Shown piece after piece: positions 21,820-60,691 of a stretch of DNA of 64,000 nt. Each line of letters begins with the position of its first letter. Positions within the stretch are counted from its first letter, which is position 1. A program made the position numbers and the translations under genes. The notes below the pieces were generated by a model, which saw only the letters and a program-made list of their open reading frames with translations, did not search any database and was not told the origin of the DNA. Source of the DNA: Candidatus Syntrophocurvum alkaliphilum (lineage in GTDB: Bacteria; Bacillota; Syntrophomonadia; Syntrophomonadales; Syntrophomonadaceae); the NCBI RefSeq assembly GCF_009734445.1, contig NZ_CP046457.1:1854001-1918000 (forward strand), given 5' to 3'.

Positions 21820-21900
21820 TAGGTAAATTTGAAATTTTGTCATTTTTTTAGTGAATAGATACAGGTAAGCATAGACTTTAACGAACTTTGACAAGGTTTT

Positions 21901-22024
21901 AATTTTGAATTCTTAATTTTTAATTATGGTTAGGAAACTTGCGTTTCCTTTTTTATTAAAATTAAAAGGGAAAGCTTTGCTTTCCCTTCGTTAATTAAGA
22001 ATTCAAAATTTAAAATTAAGAATT
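21901..22024. repeat. Family B AT-rich palindromic element, copy B1
   Basis: Left end AATTTTGAATTCTTAATTTT, right end AATTAAGAATTCAAAATTTA; between them two small hairpins, GGAAACTTGCGTTTCC and GGGAAAGCTTTGCTTTCCC. It lies between fliD and hag. Confidence 0.9.
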
Positions 22025-23904: not shown

Positions 23905-24057
23905 AATTTTGAATTCTTAATTTTTAATTTTTAATTATGGTGAGGAAACTTCGTTTCCTTTTTTATTTTGTTTTTCTCGCTTCGCGAGTTGTTTATTGGG
24001 AAAAGCTTTGCTTTTCCTTCCTTAATTAAGAATTTAAAATTAATAATTAAAAATTAG
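23905..24057. repeat. Family B element, copy B2
   Basis: Ends AATTTTGAATTCTTAATTTT and AATTAAGAATTTAAAATTAA; inner hairpins GGAAACTTCGTTTCC, CTCGCTTCGCGAG and GGGAAAAGCTTTGCTTTTCC. It separates csrA from fliD. Confidence 0.9.
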
Positions 24058-26624: not shown

Positions 26625-26776
26625 TAATTTTGAATTTTTAATTCTTAATTTTTAATTGTGGGTAGGAAACTTTCGTTTCCTTTTTTATTATAATTTATTG
26701 CAATGCAATTTTTTAAATTAGAAAAGCTTTGCTTTTCCTTCCTTAATTAAGAATTCATAATTAATAATTAAAAATT
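26625..26776. repeat. Family B element, copy B3
   Basis: Ends AATTTTGAATTTTTAATTCT and TTAATTAAGAATTCATAATT; inner hairpins GGAAACTTTCGTTTCC and GAAAAGCTTTGCTTTTC. It lies between flgK and flgL. Confidence 0.9.
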
Positions 26777-26782
26777 ATATAG

Positions 26783-29008
26783 TTATCTTCCTACTAAGCC
26801 CATTCGGTTTACTATGGTTTCTATGGCTTCGTCTATTGTTGTTATGTATCTTGAGGCTGCGTTGTAGGCGTGTTGGTATTTTATCATGTTGGTCATTTCT
26901 TCATCTAGGGACACGCCTGAGTATGATTGTCTTTTGTTTTCTAGTTCTCCTAGTAGTTGTTCTTGGTTTGTTACCATTCTTTTGGCTTCTTGTGATTTTA
27001 CTCCTACATTAGCCGCTACTGAACGCCAGAAGTCGTCGGTGGTAGCGTTTTTGATAAGGTTTTCGTTTATGTTGGTTATTTGCACTTGGTTTATTTCAAC
27101 TGGTTCATCATCACCAAATAAGAAGTCATTTCCATCTTCATCTCCATCTCCATCAATTACCCCTTTAAAATCAGGGTCTTGGGAGTAAAAAAGTAAGGTG
27201 TCACCATCTGCGCGGACGTTTACGTTTATTTCATCTTCATCTAACTTTTCTTGTATGGCTACAACTAAATCGTTAATATCGTCAAAATCATCCTCATTTA
27301 TATTTATACTTATTGTTTCATCCTCTTCACCATCAAATTGAAAGGTTAGGGCTCCATCAATATTTTCTCCAAATTCTAAATCTGTCTCACTAGCAAACAC
27401 GGTATAATTAGAGTTAAGTACTGCTTTGATGTCATCTGTATCAAAATTCGCTAATAAGCCATCATCATTTTCACCATCTTCTACTCCATGAAATCTTGAG
27501 TTTGGTGATTCAAATATAATGGTGTTTCCATCTAGTCTGACATTTATTTTTATGTCTTCATTTCTTAATGTTTCATTATTGTCTAGTTGCTGCTGTATGG
27601 CTGTCGCTAGTTCGTTTAGATCTTTTATTTCTTGTTCGGGTATTTCTATTTTTATAAGGTCTTCAATGCCTTGAATGTTAACTAGCATCTCTCCACCTAT
27701 TTCTTTTGGAAAGTTATTACCTTCAAATTCACCAGTTTTAAACGCATTTTTATCAGTTTTCATATGTTGTTTTAACTGAGCAATTTTTAATGCATTGGAG
27801 CCATCACCAAAGTTTACTTTTTCTCCGTCTTCCCATGTTCTGTTGCTAGCTGCTGCTATGTTATTAGAGTCGTTTTTTATAGTGGTGTCTAAGCTCATTA
27901 GTTGTGCCCAGTTTTCAATGTCGTCAGGGTTTTTAGGCATTTTGAAAAAATTAGTTCCATCTGGAGTACCTGATTTGTTGTTTAGGCTATAGCCTCCACG
28001 ATGAACATCGTTGGTTCCGATTATTACTGTTTTGGCTAGTTTGTTTAAGTCATCTATCATTTCTTGGATAATGCCTTTATAGTTTGAGTTTGCATCTTGT
28101 TCTAAATCTGTTTTACCTCGGGAGTCTAGAAGGCCTCTTAGTTCCCCACCATTTATATTAGCTTTAGCCCCTGTATCACTCCAAACAGGCATGTGCATGC
28201 CGTTTTCATCTTGTTTTGTTGATAGTGGGGTGTAATTGTGACCTTGTACTAGGGTTCTGCCACCAATTTGGACAGTAACCATTCCACTATAGCTTTGAGT
28301 TTGTCCACCGTTTTCATAGTGCGGCTCTTCGTATACGTTTATGTCTGTTATTTGACTAAGTTCTTCTAGTAGCATGTCTCTTTTGTCTAATAGGTCGTTT
28401 GGTTGTTTACCTGCTATGCTAATTCCTTGTATTTGTTCATTCAAATCAGTTATTTGATCGGCTAAGGAGTTTATTTCATCTATTTTTATTTTTACGTTGC
28501 TGTTTACGTCTTCTTTTAGTTCAAATAGTTGTCTATGGGTATTGTTAAAGGCATCAGCAACTGTTTCCCCTAGCTCAGCTACTACTGCTCTAACTGATTC
28601 ACTTTCTGGATTTACTGATAGGTCTTGCCATGATTCCCAGAACATATCCATAACTGCTCTTAGCCCTTCTTCTGAGGGTTCGTTAAGGATTACTTCTACC
28701 CTTGATAGGTTTTGCTGGACAGAGTCCCAGTAACCTGCGGTTTTGTTCTCGTTGCGAATTTGGTAATCGAGGAATGCATCGCGCATTCTTTGGATGTCTT
28801 CTACTTTTACTCCTGTGCCTATTTGACCAGCTGGAGCATTGCCTGCAAGCATGGGAGCATGCCAGGGGCGATTTGTTGTTATGTTAGCCACCTGCCGAGA
28901 GTAACCGGGGGTGTTGGCGTTGGAAACGTTGTGACCGGTTACGCTAAGGGCTGTTTGGTGGGTCATTATTGATCTTTTGCCGATTTCTAGACTCATAAAA
29001 TTTGACAT
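26783..29008 (-). CDS. flgK: Flagellar hook-associated protein FlgK (HAP1)
   Basis: First hook-filament junction protein. 741 residues, much longer than the roughly 500 of B. subtilis owing to an acidic insertion (about 390-660) with two related segments, each with a DELATAIQQQLDxNE-like/DLVVAIQEKLDEDEI motif and an RxDGxTxxFxSxxxxFxGVxDG motif, which look like a duplicated surface domain. Conserved ends: SLEIGKRSIMTHQTALSVTG with NVSNANTPGYSRQ, and YSGVSLDEEMTNMIKYQHAY with NAASRYITTIDEAIETIVNR. Ribosome binding site GAGAGG. Part of the flgM-N-K-L operon. Confidence 0.97.
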   Translation of the reverse strand: MSNFMSLEIGKRSIMTHQTALSVTGHNVSNANTPGYSRQVANITTNRPWHAPMLAGNAPAGQIGTGVKVEDIQRMRDAFLDYQIRNENKTAGYWDSVQQNLSRVEVILNEPSEEGLRAVMDMFWESWQDLSVNPESESVRAVVAELGETVADAFNNTHRQLFELKEDVNSNVKIKIDEINSLADQITDLNEQIQGISIAGKQPNDLLDKRDMLLEELSQITDINVYEEPHYENGGQTQSYSGMVTVQIGGRTLVQGHNYTPLSTKQDENGMHMPVWSDTGAKANINGGELRGLLDSRGKTDLEQDANSNYKGIIQEMIDDLNKLAKTVIIGTNDVHRGGYSLNNKSGTPDGTNFFKMPKNPDDIENWAQLMSLDTTIKNDSNNIAAASNRTWEDGEKVNFGDGSNALKIAQLKQHMKTDKNAFKTGEFEGNNFPKEIGGEMLVNIQGIEDLIKIEIPEQEIKDLNELATAIQQQLDNNETLRNEDIKINVRLDGNTIIFESPNSRFHGVEDGENDDGLLANFDTDDIKAVLNSNYTVFASETDLEFGENIDGALTFQFDGEEDETISININEDDFDDINDLVVAIQEKLDEDEINVNVRADGDTLLFYSQDPDFKGVIDGDGDEDGNDFLFGDDEPVEINQVQITNINENLIKNATTDDFWRSVAANVGVKSQEAKRMVTNQEQLLGELENKRQSYSGVSLDEEMTNMIKYQHAYNAASRYITTIDEAIETIVNRMGLVGR

Positions 29009-29085
29009 GGAATAACCTCTCTTTTAATTGTTCTATTATAATTAGATTAGACCCATCTTTGCTGACGGGTTTACATTGTATTTAT

Positions 29086-29225
29086 AATTTTAAATTTTTA
29101 ATTTTTAATTCTTAATTGTGGTGGAAACTGCTGTCGCAGTTTCTTTTTATTTTTCTTTTTCTGTTTTTGTGGTTGTTTTTACTATAGAGATTAGTAGTCT
29201 AATTAATTCGTTTGCCTCTTTTTTT
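29086..29225. repeat. Tandem copy of family B left end plus the 3' tail of the four-helix gene
   Basis: 29086-29225 and 29226-29365 are near-identical direct repeats: family B left end, hairpin GAAACTGCTGTCGCAGTTTC, then the last ~75 nt of the four-helix-bundle coding region. The outer copy of the coding tail is slightly diverged and not connected to a start. Confidence 0.85.
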
Positions 29226-29705
29226 TAATTTTAAATTTTTAATTTTTAATTCTTAATTGTGGTGGAAACTGCTGTCGCAGTTTCTTTTTATTTTTCCTGT
29301 TCTGTTTTTGAGGTTGTTTTTACTATAGAGGTTAGTAGTCTGACTAATTCGTTTGCCTCTTCTAGTAATTTATTTCCTTCTTCTTCATCAATAAGGCCAC
29401 TGTCTTTTAATAACCTTATCCAATAAGAACTTTCCCTTGCTTCCTTTGATGCTAGAGTCATTTTATGAATGAAATCTTTTCTGCTACCTGCTGCTAATGC
29501 TTCTTCGATGTTTGCTCCTATACTAGTACCTGATCTCATTAATTGCCTAGATATAACATATTCATTTTCTTTTTTAGCTAAATACCGGCAAGTTTTAATA
29601 ACCTGCAATGCAAAGTAATAACTTTTGTCTTTAATAATATTTCGTTTTATATTCATATTTTTTTAGTCCTTAATTAAAAATTCATAATTAAAAATTAAAA
29701 ATTAT
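29226..29705. mobile_element. Family B element carrying a four-helix-bundle gene
   Basis: Left end (29226-29285: AATTTTAAATTTTTAATTTT then TTCTTAATTGTGGTGGAAAC), the four-helix-bundle gene (29288-29656), and right end (29668-29705: CCTTAATTAAAAATTCATAA). The ends match those of the empty copies at 21.9, 23.9, 26.6 and 42.8 kb. This appears to be a gene-bearing version of the same element, inserted between flgN and flgK. Confidence 0.7.
29288..29656 (-). CDS. Four-helix-bundle protein (S23 / 23S rRNA intervening-sequence-protein family)
   Basis: 122 residues with the TIGR02436/S23-type pattern: YYFALQVIKTCRYLAKKENE, VISRQLMRSGTSIGANIEEA, RKDFIHKMTLASKEARESSY and WIRLLKDSGLIDEEEG. The family was first seen in intervening sequences of 23S rRNA and is related in fold to Avd of diversity-generating retroelements; it binds nucleic acid, but the role is unclear. 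It has no business in a flagellar operon: it interrupts flgN-flgK and is bounded by family B repeat ends, so it most likely arrived with the element. No strong ribosome binding site is visible. Confidence 0.9.
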   Translation of the reverse strand: MNIKRNIIKDKSYYFALQVIKTCRYLAKKENEYVISRQLMRSGTSIGANIEEALAAGSRKDFIHKMTLASKEARESSYWIRLLKDSGLIDEEEGNKLLEEANELVRLLTSIVKTTSKTEQEK

Positions 29706-29715
29706 TAACAGTAAT

Positions 29716-30228
29716 TTACCCCTTTGTATCTATTATATTTTTTTTGGGGCGGGAGGGGGTTTCGTCGGATTGGGTGCCTTTTTGGGAGTAGGTTCCGGCT
29801 ATGTCCCCTTCTATGGCCGCCTGCATTGAGAATATGTAGTCTAGGGATTGGTTTATTAGTTCGTTGTTTTCTTCGTTTAGGGCTCTTAAGCGCGCTAGGT
29901 TATAGTCTAGGCGTTCTATTGCTTCTTTTAGGTCTATATATAGGACATGATTGTTTTTTTGTAAGGCTGTTATTATGAATTCTGCATTCATTTGTTCGGT
30001 TTTTAGTTTTAATTTGCTAGCAATTTGCTCTTGTAATTTAAAACGGGCACCTTCGGTTTTCTCTAGATTAGAGACTATGATGCCCTCTTTTTGTATGAGT
30101 TTATCTAGTTCTTGTATTTTTCCTAGTATTATAGATTCGCGTTTTTCCTCTGCTAGTTGAACTAGCTGATCAAAGATTTTGTTTTGTTTGTTTATTGTAT
30201 CTATAAATACTTTTAGGAGATTATGCAT
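29716..30228 (-). CDS. flgN: Flagellar export chaperone FlgN
   Basis: Cytoplasmic chaperone that keeps FlgK and FlgL unfolded for export. 170 residues; helical throughout, with QLVQLAEEKRESIILGKIQE and LIQKEGIIVSNLEKTEGARF, the FlgN pattern, then a helix LNEENNELINQSLDYIFSMQ that binds its clients, and a polar unstructured tail. 12 nt after flgM. Normal length for Bacillota FlgN. Confidence 0.92.
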   Translation of the reverse strand: MHNLLKVFIDTINKQNKIFDQLVQLAEEKRESIILGKIQELDKLIQKEGIIVSNLEKTEGARFKLQEQIASKLKLKTEQMNAEFIITALQKNNHVLYIDLKEAIERLDYNLARLRALNEENNELINQSLDYIFSMQAAIEGDIAGTYSQKGTQSDETPSRPKKNIIDTKG

Positions 30229-36975: not shown

Positions 36976-37343
36976 TAATTTTGAATTTTGATTCCACTGC
37001 AAAAAGCTAAAATTAGACTATGGAATCGGCTGAGCAAACATGTTTATCACGCCACTCATCGGTCTTTACCTTCATTTTAGCTTAGCACTTATTATCTAAA
37101 ATGATTTTTTATTTATACTTAGCTGTGATCTATGCACCACGCCTTGCTATTCGGGACTTAGATAAACATGTTTGCTCAGCCTTAAGCTTGTTGTAGTTAC
37201 TTTTTGCAGCAGAATCAATTTTAAATTCTTAATTTTTAATTAATGTAAAAAACTAAGCATTTTTATTATATTTTTTGTTTAGCTATTTATGATGATAAAA
37301 AAGCAATTAGCATTCATATCCTTAATTAAGAATTTTTTAATTT
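36976..37343. repeat. Composite repeat: family C element (C3) inside a family B element
   Basis: B fragment (TTTTAATTTTGAATTTTG), then C3 36994-37217: outer ends ATTCCACTGCAAAAAGCTAA and TTACTTTTTGCAGCAGAATC, inner inverted repeat GGCTGAGCAAACATGTTTAT (37028) / ATAAACATGTTTGCTCAGCC (37154), then the rest of B (TTAAATTCTTAATTTTTAAT ... CCTTAATTAAGAATTTTTTA). Same orientation and order as 38551-38939. Confidence 0.85.
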
Positions 37344-38550: not shown

Positions 38551-38939
38551 TTTAATTTTGAATTTTGAGTTCTGGTTTTACTGCGAAAAGGTAAAGTTAG
38601 ACTATGGAATCGGCTTAGCTAACTTGTTTATCACGCCACTCATCGGTCTTTACCTTCATTTTAGCTTAGCACTTATTATCTAAAATGATTTTTTATTTAT
38701 ACTTAGCCGTAATCTATGCACCACGCCTTGCTATTTAAGGACTTAGATAAACATGTTTGCTCAGCCTTAAGTTTGTTGTAGTTACTTTTTGCAGCAGAAT
38801 CAATTTTGAATTCTTAATTTTTATTTAATGTTAGAAAACTTGTGTTCCTTGATTATCATATGTTTTGTTAATTGTTATGTGAACAAAGCTCTCTTTCTTT
38901 TCCTTAATTAAGAATTAAAAATTAATAATTAATAATTAC
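38551..38939. repeat. Composite repeat: family C element (C4) inside a family B element
   Basis: Same structure as 36976-37343: B fragment, C4 with GGTTTTACTGCGAAAAGGTA and TTACTTTTTGCAGCAGAATC outer ends, the shared 100-nt core beginning CACTCATCGGTCTTTACC, then the B right part ending CCTTAATTAAGAATTAAAAA. The left inner repeat has mutations (GGCTTAGCTAACTTGTTTAT). Confidence 0.85.
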
Positions 38940-42819: not shown

Positions 42820-42943
42820 AATTTTAAATTTTGAATTTTTAATTCTTAATTATGGTGAGGAAACTTGCGTTTCCTTTTTATAAAATTAGGAAAGCTGTGC
42901 TTTCCTTCCTAAATTAAGAATTGAAAATTAATAATTAAAAATT
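42820..42943. repeat. Family B element, copy B9
   Basis: Ends AATTTTAAATTTTGAATTTT and AAATTAAGAATTGAAAATTA; inner hairpins GGAAACTTGCGTTTCC and GGAAAGCTGTGCTTTCC. It lies directly past the tetR stop codon. Confidence 0.9.
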
Positions 42944-44783: not shown

Positions 44784-44904
44784 GAAAATACCTCCTGCCT
44801 CTTTTTATTTCGGATTTTAATTCCGTTTCTAACCGTCAAATGAATCCGCATTGCTCAATATAATTATGTAACAAGGAGGGAAAACGAATAGTTTTTCCCA
44901 CCTC

Positions 44905-44938
44905 AATTAAAAATTAAGAATTTATAATTAATAATTAC
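44905..44938. repeat. Family B element, right half only
   Basis: AATTAAAAATTAAGAATTTATAATTAATAATTA resembles the right end of the family. Located between the RND and TolC genes, it shows that elements also enter this operon. Confidence 0.7.
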
Positions 44939-59228: not shown

Positions 59229-59990
59229 TTAGGCTCTATAAACCTTATTTACGGTCAATCCAGTTAATCTAACCAGCTGCCTTAATGAGCTTCCCTCGAT
59301 TTCCTTTAAATATTTCAAAACCTCTTTTTGCATTTTAGGATCCTCATTTTGCAGTGAAGCTAATTCAATATTATATTTGTTTAACACCAAACTCCTTATT
59401 TCTTTGTCGGAAACAGTTTTCTTTTCTGGAGTTATTTCTAGACATTGATCATCATTAACTGCCACATTAAATTCTTTAAACATATCAATAGCCTTTTCCT
59501 TATCTTCATCAAACATTGCCAAAGCAAAATCTACATCAACAATCTTTGCTTCGGTAATGTATTCCTTATAACTACTCCACTTATATGACTCAATATTATC
59601 AACCAAACCTGCTTTTAACGGATTCTGATGTATGTATCTTAATACTGTTAAAAAATAAGTGTCATCTTCTACTGGTTCGCTTCTATATCGGTCCTGAAAC
59701 AAGTGTCCTTTCCTATTATACTGCCAATTGTACCAGTACACGTAACTTGCCCCTATTCGCCTCATGGTATTTCCCAACTCTTCATTCCCTTCCTTTATAA
59801 GCAAGTGAATGTGATTACCCATCAAACAGTAAGCATAAATTTCATATTCAATTTCTTTGCGGTATTTAGCAAGTGTTTTAATAAATTTTTCATTATCCTC
59901 ATCATCTACAAATATATTCTGCTGATTTATACCTCTCAACATTATGTGATATATGTTTGTCTCACTTTTCCTTCGCGCTACTCTTGGCAT
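59229..59990 (-). CDS. REP-associated tyrosine transposase (RAYT, Y1_Tnp family)
   Basis: 253 residues, HUH-type Y1 transposase that nicks and joins single-stranded DNA at hairpin ends. The HUH pair is in YCLMGNHIHLLIKEGNEE, the KGHLFQDRYRSEPVED block is intact, and the likely catalytic Tyr lies in LTVLRYIHQNPLKAGLVDN; WSSYKEY follows. The C-terminal extension (about 180-253) contains an HTH-like end, SLRQLVRLTGLTVNKVY. RAYTs move REP palindromes; this one is bracketed by family A copies (59104-59224 and the half copy at 60037-60061), so it is the likely mobiliser of family A. Confidence 0.93.
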   Translation of the reverse strand: MPRVARRKSETNIYHIMLRGINQQNIFVDDEDNEKFIKTLAKYRKEIEYEIYAYCLMGNHIHLLIKEGNEELGNTMRRIGASYVYWYNWQYNRKGHLFQDRYRSEPVEDDTYFLTVLRYIHQNPLKAGLVDNIESYKWSSYKEYITEAKIVDVDFALAMFDEDKEKAIDMFKEFNVAVNDDQCLEITPEKKTVSDKEIRSLVLNKYNIELASLQNEDPKMQKEVLKYLKEIEGSSLRQLVRLTGLTVNKVYRA

Positions 59991-60036
59991 AAAAAATCAC
60001 CCCACCGTTAGTTTAATTTACCAGTAGGGTAATGTC

Positions 60037-60061
60037 AAACAAAGAACCGTCCCCTGTTCTA
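60037..60061. repeat. Family A half-copy A12
   Basis: AACAAAGAACCGTCCCCTGTTC: one arm only. On the minus strand it starts in the stop codon of the vanZ-like gene (TAG then AACAGGGGACGG), so it lies between that gene and the RAYT gene. Confidence 0.88.
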
Positions 60062-60559
60062 TGTTTTGAATTTTCGCAAGCTTAAAACAATAAAGGCTAA
60101 AATTATATATCCAACTACATCTATAATTACATCTTCAATACATCCTGTTCTGCCATCTGTAAAGTACTGATGAGTCTCATCAGCCACTGCTACAGCTAGC
60201 ACCAATAAGCCTGCTATAATCCACGATCGTAGTCCATTTACACCAAAGCCCTTTAACACCCAAACAAATGATAAACCTAAGAACCCATACAATACCATAT
60301 GAGCACTTTTACGCATGGTAAACTGTGCAAATTCAATTGGATTGGCATAACTATCATGGAAGCGCCCTGCATAGTGAAATTGAATTTGCGGTAAGGTCAT
60401 TACTATTTGTTCTATCCTCTCACTATCTTGAACTACAGGATACACGTACTCTTTCTCTAACTCATTATTGGGAACTAATATAATTATCCCCAACCAAAAA
60501 AACATAAGTGCAACCCTTGTTATATTTTTTATAAAACCTTTCTCGATACCTATTATCAT
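60059..60559 (-). CDS. VanZ family membrane protein
   Basis: About 166 residues with four or five transmembrane helices. VanZ signatures: the FAQFTMRKSAHMVLYGFLGL block, a GLRSWIIAGLLVLAVAVADE helix, and ETHQYFTDGRTGCIEDVIID, which ends in the family's E-x2-Q-x4-R motif. VanZ proteins modulate teicoplanin sensitivity in enterococci; in Clostridia the role is unknown. The stop codon coincides with a half palindrome, so the last residues may be shortened. The start is uncertain: the ATG at 60559 has AAAGG adjacent; GTG 60580 is possible. Confidence 0.85.
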   Translation of the reverse strand: MIIGIEKGFIKNITRVALMFFWLGIIILVPNNELEKEYVYPVVQDSERIEQIVMTLPQIQFHYAGRFHDSYANPIEFAQFTMRKSAHMVLYGFLGLSFVWVLKGFGVNGLRSWIIAGLLVLAVAVADETHQYFTDGRTGCIEDVIIDVVGYIILAFIVLSLRKFKT

Positions 60560-60600
60560 CCTTTCGGCACCCTGCACCACATCTAGTTTTTCCTTTTAAC

Positions 60601-60691
60601 AGTGAAACAGGGGACGGTTCTTTGTTCTATTTCATTGGAAATAGAACAAAGAACCGTCCCCTGTTTCACTGCACCAGCACCCTGTTTCACC
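60601..60691. repeat. Family A palindrome, copy A13
   Basis: Perfect palindrome 60601-60670 (AGTGAAACAGGGGACGGTTC, loop TATTTCATTGGAAATA) plus an unpaired terminus CACCCTGTTTCACC at 60678-60691. It ends 2 nt from the CotH gene stop codon. Confidence 0.92.

Follow-up and report, generated by a model that had tools for sequence, protein, structure and literature searches.

S23 four-helix-bundle genes between inverted heptad arrays: a probable mobile element with dispersed gene-less copies

Intervening sequences and other related systems

Proteins are commonly annotated as 'four helix bundle protein' with no role assigned, and the function of the open reading frame (ORF) of intervening sequences (IVSs) has been a question since at least 1993. 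In Leptospira and Coxiella, the 23S rRNA IVS carries this S23 ORF in a short element with complementary ends and is sporadically distributed, and 23S rRNA IVSs that have no ORF are known. The 23S rRNA IVS has been described as a selfish element, and its mobility has already been suggested (PMC4990558). The S23 protein Xcc0516 has been reported to be a homopentamer (PMC4990558, PMC3936711), and S23 genes in cas loci have been proposed to be CRISPR-associated (PMC3936711). Here we describe the S23 gene of a 64,000-nucleotide stretch of DNA (the window), positions 1854001-1918000 of a closed 2.36-Mb bacterial genome (G000). The 23S rRNA IVS is the nearest known system, and the S23 element is its dispersed form. 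As in the IVS, the ends of the window copy are complementary (29226-29258 and 29672-29704, inverted arms of 33 nt, 88% complementary), but this copy is sited between flgN and flgK, in a spacer between protein genes rather than in a 23S rRNA helix, and it has terminal arrays of AATTNNN heptads, extra hairpins and approximately 39 dispersed gene-less copies. To what is known of the IVS, the present analysis adds ends made of heptads, dispersed derivatives that have lost the gene, and presence or absence at orthologous sites outside rRNA; among open-access papers, none was found that links S23 to heptad ends or reports their periodicity.

As with MITEs and their insertion sequence parents, short gene-less copies share their ends with a gene-bearing parent. 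Unlike these, the S23 parent encodes no transposase, with only the S23 gene fitting between its arrays, and no target-site duplication of fixed length is seen at its junctions. REP/BIME-RAYT systems are likewise small dispersed palindromes in spacers, but S23 ends are tandem heptads, and the Y1 genes of G000 have different repeats. Avd of diversity-generating retroelements is a pentamer, as reported for S23, and has the same four-helix-bundle fold; its sequence identity to S23 in structural alignment is approximately 11%, and the genomes richest in gene-less copies are without an RVT_1 reverse transcriptase. Intergenic 7-nt arrays are known in their own right as the heptamer repeats of Xanthomonas (GGGAATC), often in convergent inverted pairs, and the orphan heptamer repeat of Nostoc, GGGGA(T/C)T (PMC4692102), and as the TAACTGA arrays of Beggiatoaceae, nearly all of which are direct repeats (PMC4679880). 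These papers draw no link to S23. X. campestris encodes the S23 protein Xcc0516 (2gsc); S23 elements, if mobile, would offer an origin for orphan heptamer repeats, and those of Xanthomonas and Nostoc may have the same origin as the arrays of the S23 element.

The S23 element between flgN and flgK and its gene-less copies

We consider it probable that the S23 element is a mobile element of approximately 450 bp, with inverted arrays of about 4-5 heptads and S23 as its sole gene, and that deletion derivatives of it have spread. The S23/IVP gene of the window is the single S23 gene of the whole genome. As the original prediction had it, the gene is complete, lies between the two ends of an element (29226-29705) and breaks a conserved flgN-flgK order, S23, flgN and flgK all being on the same strand. 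The features of the locus are as follows.

26783..29008, minus strand: flgK, downstream neighbour of the S23 gene (ORF and profile match)
29069..29209, no strand: tandem duplicate of 29210-29350 (141 bp, 91%), with a truncated S23 3' end and a second left end
29226..29258, no strand: left terminal array (AATTNNN heptads), on the downstream side of the S23 gene (sequence)
29265..29284, no strand: subterminal hairpin GAAACTGC-TGTC-GCAGTTTC, directly past the S23 stop codon (read from sequence, alignment)
29288..29656, minus strand: S23/IVP four-helix-bundle gene, 122 aa, sole gene of the element (profile matches, AlphaFold)
29672..29704, no strand: right terminal array (AATTNNN heptads), with TTAATTAAGG at its end (sequence)
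29716..30228, minus strand: flgN, upstream neighbour of the S23 gene (ORF and profile match)

The encoded protein matches PF05635 (E 9.4e-27, 93.8 bits, curated cut-off 33.8) and TIGR02436 (E 1e-31, 109.3 bits, curated cut-off 24). Its AlphaFold monomer model has a mean pLDDT of 93, and this model matches the solved S23 structures 2rld (Z 20.8) and 2gsc (Z 17.1), in agreement with a four-helix bundle. The AAGG of TTAATTAAGG could be used as the ribosome-binding site of S23, and the hairpin past the stop codon is the counterpart of the left hairpin in gene-less copies. The element had been correctly placed, although the start first proposed for the locus, 29086, falls in the 141-bp tandem duplication. 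The left and right ends are common to gene-bearing and gene-less copies, as had been claimed, but are AATTNNN arrays of variable number and not fixed sequences.

Four gene-less copies already recognised (21.9, 23.9, 26.6 and 42.8 kb) are real, all being matched by a covariance model built from the gene-less family, and further copies lie in the window near 37.2 and 38.8 kb, with a weak one at 44.8 kb. Strands are those of the S23 sense.

21894..22024, minus: gene-less copy (covariance model)
23905..24055, minus: gene-less copy (covariance model)
26626..26776, minus: gene-less copy adjoining the flgK stop codon (covariance model)
37217..37334, minus: diverged gene-less copy (word search and alignment)
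38795..38937, minus: gene-less copy adjoining a GCAGCAGAATC repeat (alignment, covariance model)
42820..42943, minus: gene-less copy (covariance model)
44806..44936, plus: weak, one-ended gene-less copy, E 0.0099 (covariance model)

Across the 2.36-Mb genome the model finds gene-less copies at approximately 39 places in both orientations (E<=0.01; matches on the two strands merged, places and strand tallies merged by hand), and the right-end word CCTTAATTAAGAATT, with one mismatch allowed, has 32 matches as against 10 for the reversed word, a control for chance. Aligned gene-less copies have a common anatomy of heptad array, GGAAAC..GTTTCC-type hairpin, variable middle, GGAAAGC..GCTTTCC-type hairpin, CCTTAATTAAGAATT and heptad array, and in some hairpin pairs both sides vary. 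Nearly half of the places (19/39) lie 110 kb or less from the S23 gene (p 3e-10). Some copies lie beside 5S rRNA or inside the 16S-23S spacer, and one copy differs by exactly three heptads between paralogous rRNA operons. When three such spacers were compared (L003, L005 and L197), one had, at the same position and within the same arrays, a core that differs from the others and appears to be inverted, and no intact empty site was found among the three operons seen. Apart from the element, the three spacers are almost the same in sequence, and a tRNA-like stretch is confined to the operon with the different core. At G000:C1 1945937-1951024, each of several consecutive spacers has a gene-less copy, in uniform orientation and with the S23 sense opposing the neighbouring genes. 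AATT elements also have another dispersed repeat (TTTGCAGCAGAATC / GGTAGTGGAATC and its complement) next to them or on their flanks, as at approximately 37.2 and 38.8 kb of the window and at L010-L012, L018, L020, L171, L174, L182 and L191; where this repeat stands on both sides, as it does in places, the AATT elements look as if inserted at its centre. Elsewhere in the window (59250-60650) is a Y1 transposase gene, one of the three of G000, with GGGGACGGTTC/GAACCGTCCCC repeats on its flanks, apparently a RAYT with its own REP-like repeats.

In the family to which the window belongs, two spacers are occupied in different ways.

flgN-flgK, G000, G009 and G025: S23 element, frameshifted in G025
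flgN-flgK, G075: gene-less copy
flgN-flgK, G026: remnant
flgN-flgK, G007 and G017: unrelated GxxExxY elements
flgN-flgK, about a dozen other relatives: no insert of any kind
leuC-leuD, G007: gene-less copy
leuC-leuD, G076: solo array
leuC-leuD, G000 and G022: nothing

These flgN-flgK comparisons are at family-level divergence, among genomes of other genera. The gene-less model has 53 matches in G009 (both strands), 32 in G075, one in G025, one place in G007 and none in 12 others; gene-less copies are thus present in each of the four genomes that have this S23 type, G000 included, as against 1 of 13 without it (p approximately 0.002, calculated by hand), the exception being G007, which has a gene-less copy despite having no S23. 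Ends and hairpins are common to gene-less and gene-bearing copies in G000, G009, G025 and G075, and the gene-bearing copies of G025 and G075 have both hairpins at the positions seen in gene-less copies, which fits an origin of the latter by internal deletion.

Heptad arrays as a property of S23 loci

Eighty S23 loci from a scan of named genomes of many phyla (among them Bacteroidota, Planctomycetota, Verrucomicrobiota, Gemmatimonadota, Nitrospirota, Chloroflexota, Acidobacteriota and Gammaproteobacteria) were tested together with 17 loci from relatives. A 7-nt-periodic array is present in at least one flank at 87 of these 97 loci and in both flanks at 65, and detectable heptads are absent at 10; S23 genes other than that of the window thus almost always carry such ends, and the chance link that would have refuted the original prediction is not borne out. 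Lag-7 self-similarity in the two S23 flanks averages 16.0 and 16.1, whereas lags other than 7 and 14 give 3.4-4.5; control windows 740-900 nt away have no peak (3.6/4.7). As a stricter control, windows that follow long ORFs other than S23 in the same loci have a mean of 8.7 and are positive in 17% of cases, possibly raised by neighbouring arrays in some windows, and S23 flanks still score higher (p 1.5e-9). Complementarity of the flanks is 19.4 within one locus as against 9.8 between different loci.

The repeat word varies between loci but is common to both ends of one locus. In the S23 subfamily of the window gene the words are AATTACG, AGTTTTG and AATTAGG, and in the other subfamily GTGAGGA, GACGGAG and CAGGAGT; the latter subfamily includes four copies inside 23S rRNA genes (L036, L040, L041 and L051, from relatives, their location recognised from flanking sequence), whose ends are 7-nt-periodic like those of dispersed copies. 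Word similarity tracks S23 protein similarity (Mantel r 0.62, the same after GC is removed; 0.46 within subfamily; both p 0.001). The two arms share the word but not the order or number of units (0.830 vs 0.823, p 0.23; Spearman 0.15, p 0.20), so that arms acting as a faithfully paired stem were rejected, and repeated sites would matter more than a perfect stem. Arrays have a median length of about 4.6-4.7 units, which together with the five-subunit ring reported for S23 suggests that there may be one heptad per subunit; L218 and L219, on cyanobacterial plasmids, have perfect arrays of four units on each side. Q38, R41, S45, N49, E52, S58, D/E61 and E75 are conserved across both S23 subfamilies, extending the GxxRxxxSxxxNxxE motif noted earlier (PMC3936711). 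One locus, L039 (G020:C1:801538-801846), has S23 with 11-nt-periodic inverted ends, AACGATAGTTA.

We infer that S23 recognises the arrays, because of its near-universal pairing with them, the covariation of word and protein, and arms that share a word without matched order or number of units, and that it probably also drives movement. It could be argued instead that a host or other transposase, such as a RAYT/IS200-like Y1 enzyme, moves the palindromes with S23 as passenger or modulator. Y1 transposase genes are indeed present in G000 (3), G009 (2) and G075 (2), and the subterminal hairpins superficially resemble REP sequences. However, each of the three Y1 genes in G000 has GGGGACGGTTC/GAACCGTCCCC-type repeats of its own on its flanks and not the AATTNNN family, and neither the near-universal pairing of S23 with 7-nt ends nor the covariation of protein and word would be expected of a passenger, making this explanation rather improbable.

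A local role for S23 in the host, in flagellar, CRISPR or polysaccharide operons, with the heptads as regulatory sites, would account for the recurrence of S23 in flagellar operons of the window's family and for its reported presence in cas loci (PMC3936711). We regard such a role as very improbable, as S23 genes occur in unrelated contexts across phyla, gene-less ends are dispersed over the genome, and the presence/absence data below, which include an S23 gene that breaks a methyltransferase gene and a cas6-cas4 locus, 98.8% identical, that has no S23, already weaken it. S23 elements also recur in the same operon spacers of different hosts (L091, L094, L117, L146, L158 and L141). The trpD-trpC spacer of Flavobacteriaceae is such a recurrent site, in some cases with the trpD stop codon inside a heptad.

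Filled and empty sites and a proposed mode of movement

Orthologous sites with and without the element were found on cyanobacterial plasmids, which lie outside the lineage of the window. In a spacer of a conjugative plasmid, S23 is present in L224 and L225, which differ by exactly two heptads, and absent from six plasmids that are approximately 98% identical; L228/L229 are empty, L230 has a truncated S23, and L237 (81% identical) has at the same point a gene-less element with CAGGAGT-type arrays. At a single site, therefore, versions with the gene, with a truncated gene, without the gene and with no element are all found. Where the empty version reads AAAAAGTAATTAACAAATAA, the filled one reads AAAAAGTAATaAA [element] GTAATTAACAAATAA, with a near-duplication of 8 bp, and precise loss of the element could also explain the empty versions. 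In the Nostoc plasmids L219/L241/L242, S23 breaks a gene for a DNA cytosine methyltransferase, which L234/L235 have intact; approximately 320 bp of the target is missing in the filled version, two filled copies have 4+4 heptads and the third 3+3, and it is solely at this site that the polarity of insertion is certain. Plasmid A of Nostoc C052 contains S23 at a place where it is absent from other plasmids of that strain, and approximately 200 bp of the target is missing. In Anabaena 90, S23 lies between cas6 and cas4 and is absent from the corresponding Dolichospermum locus, which is 98.8% identical. At this site at least, insertion better explains the presence of S23 in a cas locus, and if S23 marks a mobile element, caution is needed before S23 genes are classed as CRISPR-associated. 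Further filled and empty pairs were also seen. S23 elements lie between cas1 and cas2, cas6 and cas4, and DISARM and BREX genes on the cyanobacterial plasmids L220, L227 and L216. The Calothrix plasmids L222/L223, considered as a case of recent transposition, were rejected as plasmid duplication because their flanks are shared.

Gene-bearing and gene-less copies belong to a single family, and orthologous sites are polymorphic for the element. The view of the original prediction that the gene copy is the parent and the gene-less copies its derivatives is supported by the shared ends and hairpins, their co-occurrence in genomes, the four states of the plasmid site and the near-universal ends. 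Deletion of the gene would leave non-autonomous hairpin copies that still spread. We propose that the five-subunit ring of S23 would bind the heptad arrays, perhaps with one unit per subunit in a TRAP-like manner, and pair the two ends of the element, and that S23 would recruit host replication or repair enzymes, by which the element would be joined to another site, often one close by. Junctions vary, with an 8-bp near-duplication at one site and losses at two others, and are better accounted for by repair-type joining than by a transposase of fixed stagger; they point to host repair or replication for the predicted joining step. S23 has no known catalytic site.

Variable junctions also recall retro-insertion, and a reverse transcriptase might copy the transcript of the element, which RNase III may release in the way known for rRNA IVSs, with S23 in an Avd-like role. 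S23 gene copies are co-directional with both neighbours at 53:5, in sense with transcription, and homology of S23 and Avd has been proposed from a published structural alignment (PMC10053308). In our structural comparison Avd came next after the solved S23 structures (Z about 14), but unrelated helical bundles almost reach this score, so that the likeness to Avd is a lead only; the resemblance originally predicted holds for the fold and goes no further. RVT_1 is absent from closed G000, G009 (99% complete) and G075, three genomes rich in gene-less copies, and the gene-less copies have no strand bias relative to neighbouring genes (12:11, hand count), although later inversion of these copies may be the source of this balance. 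Retro mobility is therefore unlikely, and insertion solely in sense via RNA was rejected on the 12:11 ratio. The sense bias of gene copies would instead reflect dependence on host transcription, because of which they are kept in sense within operons.

For mobility by way of S23, the reading we prefer, the consequences are practical: if S23 marks a mobile element with readable ends, its binding to heptads and its movement become testable, and the end signature is a genome-wide marker of insertion polymorphism. Mobility in the absence of a recognisable recombinase would add to the known ways in which DNA moves. More tentatively, and with some doubt, S23 elements might be a class of transposase-free mobile DNA across phyla, with the pentamer as mobility factor (one subunit per heptad of an approximately 5-unit array at each end), many bacterial heptamer repeats as their footprints, and GxxExxY elements as a second class with 9-10-nt units.

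Targeting of palindrome tips, as in rRNA helices, was suggestive in single cases and was rejected as a general rule (3.58 vs 3.35 +- 0.11; 12/300 shuffles equally high). CAATTCG is present near the junction at the methyltransferase site in both filled and empty versions, as might be expected if a heptad were copied from the target, but other sites have nothing similar. GxxExxY genes (TIGR04256; L063, L065 and L203-L210) have inverted short-repeat ends with a 9-10-nt period (ACACAGATNN, ATCCGTGTA) and look like a second class of the same design as S23 elements; two of them occupy the same flgN-flgK spacer as S23 elements.
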